Assembly (NCBI GenBank): GCA_009746045.1
Contig: RPFO01000667.1
Coordinates: 5,187,719 to 5,251,718, forward strand
Reading direction: 5' to 3'
DNA from: Mesostigma viride
Lineage: Eukaryota > Streptophyta > Mesostigmatophyceae > Mesostigmatales > Mesostigmataceae
DNA: 64,000 nucleotides
In this document: in pieces, positions 5,101 through 20,100 of the stretch
How the letters are laid out: every line of letters begins with the position of its first letter
Numbering within the stretch: the stretch's first letter is position 1
The notes under the pieces: generated by a model
What the model was told of the DNA's origin: nothing
What the model saw: the letters and a program-made list of their open reading frames with translations, nothing else
Databases searched by the model: none
Position numbers and translations under genes: made by a program

Positions 5101-8100
5101 TGACAAGTCCTCGGCCGGTTCCACTCCCATTCATTTGCGCATTTTTTGAGGCCCCTGACCACTCTTTTCCTTGACACTGCTTGCGGCTTGCTCCCATTTC
5201 TCCTTCCTTGATGACCCTCTTTTCTTTCTTGTCTTATTACCTTGTCAACTGCCTGTCCCTTTCCTCTCTCCTTCACAACTCCCTCCCCCCATTCCCACTG
5301 TCTACACAAATTATTGCCGAACATCTTTCATTGTTGATGAGACCTTGCCCCCATCCCCCCTTCCTCCACAAACCCCCTCACCCGCAGGTGGGCTGTCATC
5401 GCGAGCACAGCCGCCATCGTGCGCTTGTCCCTGCTGCCCGTCACCCTGCGCGGTATGAGGGCCAATGCAGGCCTCTCCCGCGCCATTGCCGCCGAGGCTG
5501 CCCGCGCCCGGTCAGCGACCGCAATCCTGCCCCATGATGCTGGCACTGTCCTTGACAGCAACAACAACAATAACGCTAACAATACAAGCCCTAATGCTTC
5601 TGCCGGTGCTGATCCTGCCCGATCTGCTGCCAGCTCGGCTGCTGGCAATGCGGTGCTCAGTGGAGCGGGCGTTGTGGCCCCCGGCCATGCCCATGCGGGT
5701 GGACACGTGACAGATGCCAGGCTCTCTGCCAGTGGGGCGGGGGAGGGATTGGGAGGGGGGCCAGGCATGGGGGTTCCCACTATGTCACCGGCCAGCATGC
5801 CCCTGCCAGATACCGAGAGGACAGGTGGCGCCGCCAGCAGCCGTCCGCCCTCGACAGCAGCCATGTTGCGGGAGCGGCGCGCCGGGCTTGTGAAGCGGTT
5901 GCTGCAGCACACGAGGGAGTTGGGTGCGCCCCACCCCGCGTGGATCCTGGGCTCCCCAGCCATACAGGTGCGCCCTTGTTTTGGCTTTACACTACTATAC
6001 AATAATTCTTGTGTTGCCACATTTCCTGGGCTCTCCTGCTGTACAGGTGCGTCCTGGTGCTAGCTTCCCCCCCCCCAAAGTATAGTCTCAGGATTAGTTA
6101 GTTAATTATCACGTTGACTGCGTCACGCGGGTACCAATAAAGTCTCAGGATATTAGTATAGTCTCAGGATATTAGTATAGTCTCAGGATATTAGTATAGT
6201 CTCAGGATATTAGTATAGTCTCAGGATATTAGTATAGTCTCAGGATATTAGTATAGTCTCAGGATATTAGTATAGTCTCAGGATATTAGTATAGTCTCAG
6301 GATATTAGTATAGTCTCAGGATATTAGTATAGTCTCAGGATATTAGTATAGTCTCAGGATATTAGTATAGTCTCAGGGATAAATCATGGCCATTCCCCGC
6401 GCTCCCTTTACAAACAGGGAGGCACGTTTACAAACAGGGACAGATGGGAACACGGGGTTTGGTAGTATGGCGTTTTGTGTACTGCTATCAGGGTAAGTCG
6501 TTTGTTGAATAGGTATTAGCTCCCAGCGTGTAGCTGTCTCACTGGAGTTCGAATGACCCTTGATACAGTGACCCAGGATACAGTGACCCAGGATACAGCG
6601 GGCGGTTCCCAGAGCCGCCGGATGGGCATGCCACTCCGACGCTCCATCGTGATGGATCAAAGTGCGGCTGTTATTTGATGAATAATGAAACTAGCCATTT
6701 CTTGAATAACGAACTTTCTAGGATCCTGCCCAGGACAGCTACGGGACTGGCAGTTTTTTGACGACCCTGACCTTTTAAAATTAATACATTAAAGTTTGAC
6801 AGCTTTAACTAAAATTTAGTTTTACCTTGGGTTTCCCTGTCATCGCGTGTTTTACTTGGATAGCATGCTATTCTTGTGGCCCCCTGGGGGCCCTCCCATG
6901 GCTTCTCTAGGCGTTGCATGTACAAAAAAAATTAGATTACTTGACAAGATCGCGTTTATAAGCAAGATTGCTTTTCTAGTCAACGTTTCATCGGCCAAGG
7001 CAGATGCGGTGAGATGTCGGGGGGCCTGGCAGGAAGGAACCTTGCCGACGTTTTTTCAAGGTGATATTTGTTGCGTGGTCTTTGAGTACTGCTTGTGTGC
7101 GTACCTGCACCCATTTTGCCAGACATCCTGTTGTTGCCTCTTAGAAAGTATGCAATTCGTTTTAGCCAATCACTCATGCAAGTACTCAATCAGCATTGGG
7201 ACTTCTAATCATAGTACTTGGGTTAATCGTTGGTTGCGACCTACTGGCTGCATGCTGGCTCTGCGCTTTCTCGTACTCGCATTCCCGTCCACCACACACA
7301 ATTTCACAGAACTCCACGTCGTTGTCTTCCTCCCATTTCCACAGAGTGTTATGTTTTGGTTTCTGTCAACTCAATTCGGTTTTTCTCTATTTCCCTGCAC
7401 CGCGTGGCACGACCGTCACCTTTGGACATGTGCTATCGACTTGTCTTTGGACATGCATTATCGACTGATAGCTCCGTGCCTCACCTTACTCTCTCACGGC
7501 ATCCCCTCACCTTGCTCTCTCAGGGACTGTGCCCGTATCGCTATTCTCTCGTTGCTGTTTCCCTCATAGCTATTCTCCCGTCGCTATTTCGCTTCTTGCT
7601 ATCCCCTATTGCCTATCCCCCCAACATTCGTCGCTTCTTGCGTTTTTTTGGTTGCCCCTTCCCCCCCCCTCCCCAGATCCCCTTCCTGCTGGTGGCAACA
7701 ATGGGCATGCGACAGCTGGCGTTTCAAGGGGGGGTGACCGGGCTTGACACGGTGAGTCAGTCTACGGTTTCTGTGCAAATTCCGTAGGGCCTATAGGAAT
7801 AAAATCAGGGTCCAATTGAAATCGAATTCCTATTGGACAAGACCACTGGTGGGGTACAGCCACAGGGCTGGAGAGTGGGTATTACGCTGGGCTTGACACA
7901 GTGAGCCCCCTCTCATCTAATTCCTCTTTTTGTTGATGCCCAGAGTTCTATCATGCCCAAGGCCTCCATCATGCCAAAGGCCGTCATACCTCTACCTGAT
8001 GGTAGACAGCCAGGGCCAGAGGCATCGCGAGTGGGTAGAATGAGATCCGTTCAACAACCCGATGGGGTACACAAAGACTCGGCAACCCAATGGGTGATTT

Positions 8101-17100: not shown

Positions 17101-20100
17101 TCTACCCTTTTCTGCGCCTTTCTGTCTACCGACGTCACTTTTCCCTGTGCCGGCAGGACGTGTTGGGCCCGACAAAAGCGGACTATTTATTCCGAGCTGC
17201 CGTGGCGCTGGCCAAGCAGGTACGGAGTCTCTGCTTTCCCAGTTTTGGGGCATGCGACAACAAACGTTTGTCACATGACGCTGCACGGGCAGCAGCAACC
17301 AAGTATCACAGGGGAAGGTGCTGAGGTCTATCTTGTTTCTGTATGCTGCTGAAAGTGCAGCCATTTGGAGGTCAGGGCAGGACTGAAAGTGTTTGCAGGG
17401 GGTATGGGGGGGTGGGGGAAACTGGGTATCAGGTAGGTTACGGTGTGGAGGAGACACAGATGTCACATTTATGTAAGATCACATTCATTTTTTTCATTTT
17501 TCTGTGAGGTGATCGAGCAGCTGGCTATCTATTCACAAGTGGGAAGGCTTCATCGAGCTACTGAAGCGGTCAGGGCAAAGTCTAATGGGGTCCCATTTTA
17601 TATCAGACACTGCTAGTAGCTATCGTATATTAGACACTATTATTAGCCATTGTATATTGGACGTTATAGTTATTGAATTTGGTTCTTTGCTGTCATTTAA
17701 AATTGCCTGTAACGCATGGGTTTCAGTGCATAAGCAAAGGTCAGTGGTATCAGCCGGTTAGGGTCTTGAGAGAGAATAAATCAAGCTGCCCAGGAAGCAT
17801 CAAGGCAGTGGTTATGATCAACAGGGTTTCCTTGCAAACCCATAGGCTGGGAGATCCTTTTCTGTCTTCAAGAAAAGCTCCCCACCCAGGCCTTTGGTCA
17901 GGCTCCTGACGGGAACGTGATTACCTATTCGTATAGTAGTAACCAGATATAATCAATAAGAACCCGATCGAACCTGTTTGTGATCACCTATTCGTATAAC
18001 CAGAGATAATCACTAAGTACCCGATCGAACCTGTTTGTGATGACCTATTCGTATAACCAGATATAATCACTAAGAACCCGATCGAACCTGTTTGTGATCA
18101 CCGGTACTCATTCCCATCGCCAGTCGAGATTCATGGATGTCTGGCGCCTGCAGGGTGGGGCGGATGATCTCGCGGAGCAGACTCTGAGGGAGGTGACGGC
18201 GATGCGACCCGACATGCTGGAAGCGCATGTGTCCTTGGCGAGGTGAGCCTGGCCACAATATGGGGAATCCAACCCACTTAAGTACTTGTGACCACATCAT
18301 GGGAACCCAACCCACTTAGCTACTTGTGACTACAACATGGGAATCCAACAACTTCAATGGTATGCCACAACCCATGCTGGAAGCGCACGTGTCCTTGGCG
18401 AGAAAGGCGTGGCCAGCTTGCGCAGTTTGGGATACCCTGCGGGTGTCTGCTTGAGTGTTTCGGTAACCCATGTCATGCGATGGCCCATTGTGGAAGCGCA
18501 CATTTCCCTGGCGAAGCGCGCCTGACTAGAAACCTGAGATCCAGCCAGTTTAAGAGTGGCTGCCTTGTCAATTGACATGCATGTGTTGTCCTTTTTTATG
18601 ATCAAGAGCTGGTCGGCAACGGATCAAGCATCGCTGCCTTTTAAGAGTTGAGAGCGGCTGCCGTGTGGAGCGAGCAACATGAAGCATGATAGCTCATATT
18701 GCTACACTAGCATCTGTTCCGCCACGACCAGCGTGTGTGCTCTCGCATCCAGCTGACATCTGTGGTATCTGCAGTGAATTCTGTAGTAGGTGCCTGGTTA
18801 TACCCTAGCCTGCGTTGGAAGCGTGCATGCCTCTGGCTGCACGGTGACCGTGCGATAGAAATCATAGAATCCTTGACGTGGTGTGTGTGCTGTAGGTTGA
18901 AGTACGGGTAAAAGAGCCCAGCCGATGTCTGTTTAAGATCTAATACAAACGGTTTGGTTTTCTAATATCCAGATTTCTCTGATAATAACAGATCCCGAAC
19001 AGGATAGCTCTGGTACTGGATTTCAATTAGGATAACAGTTGCGACGTTTTGGCTATCACCCAAATGTCCGTAGGATGTCCCAAGCACCCGCTTGTCTCCT
19101 CCGAAGTATCCGCTGTCACCCATATGTCGATAAGACCCACTTGTCTGTTCCTACCTCAGTTTAAACATGCGCTTTCTCATATCCTCAAATCAATCATGAA
19201 TAATCTCCTCTGGGTATGCAGGGATCACCCTGGCAGCCTCGCTTCAAGGTAAGTTATATCAGTAATGTTGATAATTATTTGATTGGCCTGCGCTGCCAAA
19301 ACACCGCCTCGAAAGAAGGCGCCCACGAAAGAAGGCGCTCTGGGTGACAAGTCCTGGTGGAGTATCGGTTCCTTAAATAGTAATAATGTCTCTGTGGACC
19401 AAACACACGTGCTGCCGAGTGTTGGATCGTGATCATTTGCTTCATTTTCTTCGTGTGTGTACGCTAGTGTGTGTGATAGTGTAGTTCATGATGGGGCGGG
19501 GGCAGGGGAGGGGGAGGGGAGGGGGAGGGGGGGGGGAGGGGAGGGGGAGGGGGAGGGGGAGGGGGGGGGAGGGGGAGGGGGAGGGGAGGGGGAGGGGGAG
19601 GGGGAGGGGGAGGGGAGGGGGAGGGGAGGGGGAGGGGAGGGGGAGGGGGAGGGGAGGGGGAGGGGAGGGGGTGTGCTTGCATCTGTGCCCTACCATAGAC
19701 TAGGTGTAACATGGAGCCCGTTCGGCACTAACATTACTACGACAAGAAGTGACTATTATCAATCTCTGCTTCGGTCAAGTTTGACATTTTGTAAATTGAA
19801 GCGGCACCAACTGTGTCCTAAATCTCCTTGTTTCAGCTCTGCATCATGTTGCTTGTGCTGCCTGCTATGATCATGTTACAATACAAACATCAATAATTAC
19901 GCACTACTATAATTATCGACTTAAATACAACTAGATAACTAGGTATTTTGTGGCATTATCCCAAGCATCACATTTCAAGCATTTGGGAACTTGTGCGCTT
20001 GCTGCTTTATCTGATTCAATTCGTTGAATCAACTCCTGTCATGCTGTGTTGTTCTGTGGCAGCGTGCTCCTGCGAGCCAACCGAAAGCATGAGGCGCTGG

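Follow-up and report, generated by a model that had tools for sequence, protein, structure and literature searches.

Short tandem duplications are a common source of small insertions, and they are the likely type of mutation behind the pattern described here, in which degenerate copies of exon ends and their 5' splice sites (donors) recur in the introns of an insertase gene of the streptophyte Mesostigma viride; we know of no account of such duplications as a donor-centred intron pattern. The gene lies in a stretch of 64,000 nucleotides (assembly GCA_009746045.1, contig RPFO01000667.1, positions 5,187,719 to 5,251,718, forward strand), hereafter the window.

Several described systems come close to this pattern. 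According to the consulted part of the report on the ATP2A1/ATP2A2 and potato RdRp cases (PMC4974935), a short gene segment with splice signals was tandemly duplicated, as here, and in potato the duplicated segment also crosses an intron-exon boundary; those events created a new intron, whereas the Mesostigma copies lie within existing introns of the database protein model (P0001), which gains no intron from them. Novel intron positions in Drosophila, arising via exon tandem duplication or sliding, likewise have splice sites duplicated close by, but in the portion of the report consulted (PMC2891723) these are coding duplications with moved intron positions, whereas in Mesostigma non-coding copies stand beside an unmoved donor. 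Introner-type elements (PMC9860276) share the association of repeated DNA with introns, but they form dispersed families, whereas in the introns tested each insertase copy resembles its own exon and no other. In the open-licence literature searched, at the level of titles and abstract openings, intronic copies centred on donors were not found described. For M. viride itself, the consulted part of PMC6947507 gives a mean intron length of 1142 bp and a repetitive fraction of 30% of intron space; the published annotation comprises 24,431 genes.

Copies of exon ends in the insertase introns

The sequence-only reading of the window had proposed that the introns of this gene, put at about 15, grow by tandem duplication across their donors. 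The gene has 14 introns, and copies were found in all eight that had been named, downstream of the exons ending at 5967, 7751, 8951, 10374, 11980, 13068, 14830 and 18242. The pattern is real and sharply donor-centred. Probes of 40 exon and 20 intron bases (-40 to +20), with a score of at least 28 taken as a copy, reached this threshold on the same strand of their own intron in 7 of the 14 introns; the tandem at exon end 8951 fell beyond the target limit of this test and was counted separately as the eighth. None of the 182 pairings of a donor probe with a non-matching intron of the gene reached 28, on which ground a dispersed introner-like element was rejected. The reverse complements reached it in no own intron (0/14) and once over all pairings (1/196); the copies run in the same direction as their source. 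Against dinucleotide shuffles, the same seven donors gave p≤0.01 (13-intron gene model).

The 3' splice sites (acceptors) behaved differently, with one own intron (1/14), 1/182 non-matching pairs and 3/196 reverse complements at or above 28. A sliding profile of overlapping probes, one per 5 bases, peaked on the donor, where a fraction of 0.476 scored at least 28, versus 0.051 in array-masked intron, 0.040 at acceptors, 0.040 in exons and 0.043 in the remaining window; the intron fraction rises to 0.16 without array masking. Among 60-mers centred no more than 20 bases from a donor, the fraction was 0.50, from eight introns. In the transposon-like genes of the same window no intron reached 28 at donor or acceptor (0/10, these introns being short and few), with best scores of 21 for a donor (shuffle p 0.003) and 22 for an acceptor (p 0.023).

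Individual copies differ in length and preservation (Table 1). The decoy in intron 4, CAG|GTGCGT, outscores the real donor, CAG|GTGCGC, in donor scoring, and the exon-5 copy starts at 7859 or 7850 under a looser alignment. Within the exon-6 tandem the intron part is 97% identical over 33 nucleotides (nt), and a looser alignment spans exon position -20 through the donor. The weakest copies, at 10562, about 13274, 14947 and 18811, are short or strongly diverged and are supported mainly by their place in a series. Introns 11 and 14 have arrays near their donors, as by eye does intron 3, whose start (4052-4200) seems to hold about four degenerate units of 33-35 bp, the first beginning at the donor GT; the sliding profile also flags 4051-4125 there. 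The only acceptor-side copy scoring at least 28 in the gene (14637..14676) stands upstream of exon 11 in intron 10, the sole intron with such a copy, which has a GC donor (14151) and no donor copy.

For 14 insertase copies, aligned ungapped with junctions set by hand at donor-like sites, identity was 74% in the exon part, 77% in the donor hexamer, 41% from +7 to +20 and 29% from +21 to +50, where 25% is expected by chance. A drop past the hexamer is what one would expect if the exon and the real donor are held while the remainder drifts. GT was retained in 12 of the 14, in line with the earlier remark that it is often kept. Splicing at any one of the 14 examined decoys would introduce either a frameshift or a premature stop, and therefore the first donor, the one used in P0001, must be the productive one.

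Kinesin genes and recent tandem repeats in the same genome

The pattern extends beyond the insertase gene, donor-centred copies being present in two sets of genes from one genome. When the M. viride genome was searched for kinesin domains, 129 exon matches were obtained, of which 111 were carried forward and 18 dropped; the latter include four that were long and single-exon, as well as seven from contigs duplicating another contig's match. The 35 matches whose sequence was examined supplied 22 testable donors and 28 testable acceptors, each being the best-scoring site near the domain match as chosen by the analyst, not an annotated site. Copies no more than 700 bases away were found for 10 of the 22 donors and 6 of the 28 acceptors, a run of C accounting for one of the six, and reverse complements gave none (0/22 donors, 0/28 acceptors); the enrichment at exon ends thus extends to other genes. 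All ten donor alignments cross the junction, and the copies lie 44-127 bases from their source in eight cases and 144 and 573 bases away in the other two. Non-matching pairs reached the threshold in 5/442 cases for donors and 27/722 for acceptors, which raises the noise floor of the acceptor figure; probes from exon interiors, 70 bases or more away from a donor, never did (0/91). The sliding profile again peaked on the donor, at 0.43.

When the two gene sets were pooled, copies were found at 17 of 36 donors versus 6 of 42 acceptors (one-sided Fisher p 0.0016, poly-C match dropped), or 7 of 42 acceptors with that match (p 0.0036). Taken separately, the difference gave p 0.016 for the insertase and p 0.067 for the kinesin genes (poly-C match included).

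Recent head-to-tail tandem repeats pass through donors in other genes of the genome. One with a 70-bp period, at C2189:671594-671830, begins at -23, inside the exon; its opening 43 bases, which extend through the donor, match 43/43, and the likeness extends to about +75, giving slightly more than two copies. A 127-bp period at C2133:5967357 agrees almost perfectly within the intron but poorly within the exon, and at C2067:138361 a 44-bp repeat passes through a GC donor. Together with the GT kept in 12 of the 14 insertase copies and the recurrence of the pattern in the kinesin genes, these repeats bear out the earlier proposal that the copies originate by tandem duplication.

Origin of the donor-centred pattern

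A duplication was called recent if at least 36 of 40 bases were identical. Such duplications were present at 3 of 22 kinesin donors, compared with a fraction of 0.094 among the other 66,349 bases of those loci, and at none of the 14 insertase donors, compared with 0.116 of insertase intron bases. With both copies marked, the fraction was 0.14-0.16 in the first 200 bases of kinesin introns and 0.05-0.10 at 200-600, and it was 0 in the first 100 bases of insertase introns and 0.05-0.18 further in. There is thus no consistent excess of recent duplications at donors (3/36 versus a background of 0.094-0.116, a small sample), which agrees with uniform neutral tandem duplication. Because recent duplications are equally frequent in other non-coding DNA, the donor peak consists largely of diverged copies, recognisable since the selected exon stays constant. 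Of the proposed intron growth across donors, tandem duplication therefore stands, whereas its specificity for donors is not supported so far: acceptors and exon starts are copied too, if less often, and recent events are as frequent elsewhere in non-coding DNA.

The explanation that we favour, and consider probable, is a general tandem duplication in non-coding DNA, which splicing filters and constraint on the exon makes visible. Mesostigma non-coding DNA would repeatedly undergo short local tandem duplications, with most of the observed copies 44-240 bp away from their source. A duplication straddling a donor would leave the left exon and donor intact and give the intron a second exon end and donor, and it would persist while the first donor remains in use. 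Duplications inside exons would be purged by selection, and seemingly many across acceptors as well. The copies would afterwards decay neutrally, and the near-constant exon would keep them recognisable after wholly intronic duplications have blurred; exon ends would appear as the focus of the process because the exon is conserved and old copies can be recognised for longer. As the sequence-only reading suggested, the minisatellites of the same introns may plausibly be the same process carried further.

Several observations weigh against general duplication as the whole account. When duplication was simulated as uniform, with sieving at exons and acceptors and scoring by the same type of test, the ratio of donor to interior copies was 0.66-1.18, versus about 3 (0.50/0.16) observed in the insertase gene and about 6 (0.45/0.073) in the kinesin genes, and at the rate fitting the insertase interior figure none of 32 runs reached 7/14 donors. 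The ratio of donor to recent copies was 4-6 observed versus 1.3-3.1 simulated, and that of interior to recent copies 0.9-1.4 versus 2.1-2.9; old interior copies are therefore scarcer than the model predicts, and old donor copies exceed the simulated level. The decay beyond +20, almost to chance, exceeds what the divergence of the exon part would lead one to expect, the hand-placed junctions favour the donor identity figure, and recent arrays may inflate the background rate. Another simulation did reach 7/14 donors, in some runs only, nearly all of them with about half of the intron interior repetitive. Detection bias as a full explanation was rejected, three simulations all falling short of the observed donor-to-interior ratio. 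The excess over simulation would reflect either a background inflated by recent arrays, an older burst, or duplication or retention specific to donors.

The last of these leads to a rival account that we regard as possible, though doubtful, in which donors are mutational hotspots, where transcription, R-loops or G-rich donor repeats provoke duplication and older copies are pushed downstream as introns grow at their 5' ends. Mesostigma introns would then hold a layered record, with duplications either triggered at the boundary of exon and donor or preferentially retained there, and with the youngest copy nearest the exon, a proposition to which we give the same tentative standing. The donor excess over uniform simulation speaks for such hotspots, as do the kinesin 60-mers centred 60-140 bases into the intron, repetitive in a fraction of 0.22 versus 0.07-0.17 deeper, and the nearest copy being the least diverged in introns 9 and 14; yet the frequency of recent duplications at donors is similar to background, and the intron-7 copies, ranked by divergence, do not fall in the order of their distance. 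It is unlikely that the copies were kept for a function, as decoy donors that hold the U1 small nuclear ribonucleoprotein, slow splicing or yield transcripts for nonsense-mediated decay. Retention of GT and the strength of the intron-4 decoy would fit such a role, but donor hexamers are barely better kept than exon parts, and the nearest intron-14 copy has 12/12 exon bases and yet has lost its donor; the identity by part of the 14 copies gave no clear sign of selection on decoy donors.

Still less probable are remains of whole-exon duplications, whether tandem exon duplications or alternative or poison exons. Exon 11, preceded by an acceptor-side copy and followed by donor-side ones, is suggestive of them and alone has both ends copied, but no whole exon with both splice sites was found duplicated. 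With whole-exon queries of up to 300 bases, the best copy ends inside the exon for six of eight exons; it covers, for example, just 23 of the 580 bases in exon 4 and 19 of the 48 in exon 9. Exons 6 and 7 had other weak matches as their best, that of exon 6 (9199-9320) topping the tandem copy. Chance similarity or an artefact of base composition is next to impossible: it has nothing in its favour beyond the noise floor given by the single donor reverse-complement pairing at 28, and the clean non-matching pairs, the clean own-intron reverse complements and the shuffles of the seven donors all speak against it.

In the two gene sets, roughly every second donor tested is thus followed by fossil copies of its own exon end, and the exon, serving as a fixed ruler, makes readable an intron growth that is usually hidden by fast intron drift. 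The copies also form a natural series of competing donors on which one could test how the spliceosome chooses the first among similar sites, and why acceptor duplications are rarer. For gene finders, they call for caution in such genomes, since a strong donor-like site whose left flank resembles an exon can be a decoy.

Gene product, feature coordinates and neighbouring genes

The database protein P0001 (jgi/Mesvir1 Mv22004-RA.3, EukProt; we take the label Mesvir1 to denote M. viride) is the exact translation of the 15 joined exons, and the database assigns PF02096 (60KD insertase) and TPR domains to it. The product is likely a TPR-bearing insertase of the 60KD/Oxa1 type, possibly of the plant OXA2 subfamily. 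A first gene model, with an extra 27-nt exon at 19222-19248, gave a 618-residue version in which the PF02096 and TPR scores fall under the Pfam cut-offs; that exon was dropped, not being in P0001. The 27-nt stretch has acceptor-like and donor-like flanks and leaves the insertase frame open, and it may be an unused mini-exon, an alternative exon or a decoy.

Table 1. Exons of the insertase gene and mapped copies of exon ends and splice sites (window positions)
Feature	Position	Strand	Remark
Insertase gene, 15 exons	716..20189	+	joined exon translation identical to P0001
Insertase exons 1-8	716-744, 2161-2788, 3780-4051, 5388-5967, 7677-7751, 8850-8951, 10315-10374, 11903-11980	+	
Insertase exons 9-15	13021-13068, 13908-14150, 14775-14830, 15522-15672, 17157-17219, 18154-18242, 20063-20189	+	
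Exon-4 end and donor, source	5945..5987	+	
Exon-4 end and donor, copy at offset 79	6024..6066	+	79% over 43 nt
Exon-5 end and donor, copy	7889..7905	+	score 29, shuffle p 0.010
Tandem pair of 60-61 bp across exon-6 donor	8932..9055	+	second copy about 8995-9055
Exon-7 end and donor, copy 1	10430..10450	+	
Exon-7 end and donor, copy 2	10501..10521	+	score 32
Exon-7 end and donor, copy 3	10562..10575	+	weak
Exon-8 end and donor, copy	12127..12189	+	gapped
Exon-9 end and donor, copy 1	13153..13192	+	85% over 40 nt
Exon-9 end and donor, copy 2	13272..13311	+	diverged, 63% over 40 nt
Acceptor and exon-11 start, copy upstream of exon	14637..14676	+	score 46
Exon-11 end and donor, short copy	14946..14963	+	11/12 exon bases, 3/6 donor bases
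Exon-11 end and donor, copy	15050..15076	+	score 29
Exon-14 end and donor region, copy 1	18362..18415	+	donor GT lost, 80% over 54 nt
Exon-14 end and donor region, copy 2	18475..18543	+	70% over 54 nt
Exon-14 end and donor region, copy 3	18802..18872	+	weak

Elsewhere in the window, a gene with five short introns of 148-283 bp at 59795-62296 (+ strand) lies, by eye, apparently within a mobile element, and another with at least five introns at 53398-56296 (- strand) is apparently part of another mobile element, also by eye. An intronless open frame at 34056-34673 matches the Pfam family CSN8_PSD8_EIF3K (E 1.7e-31) and is probably a COP9 signalosome subunit 8 gene.

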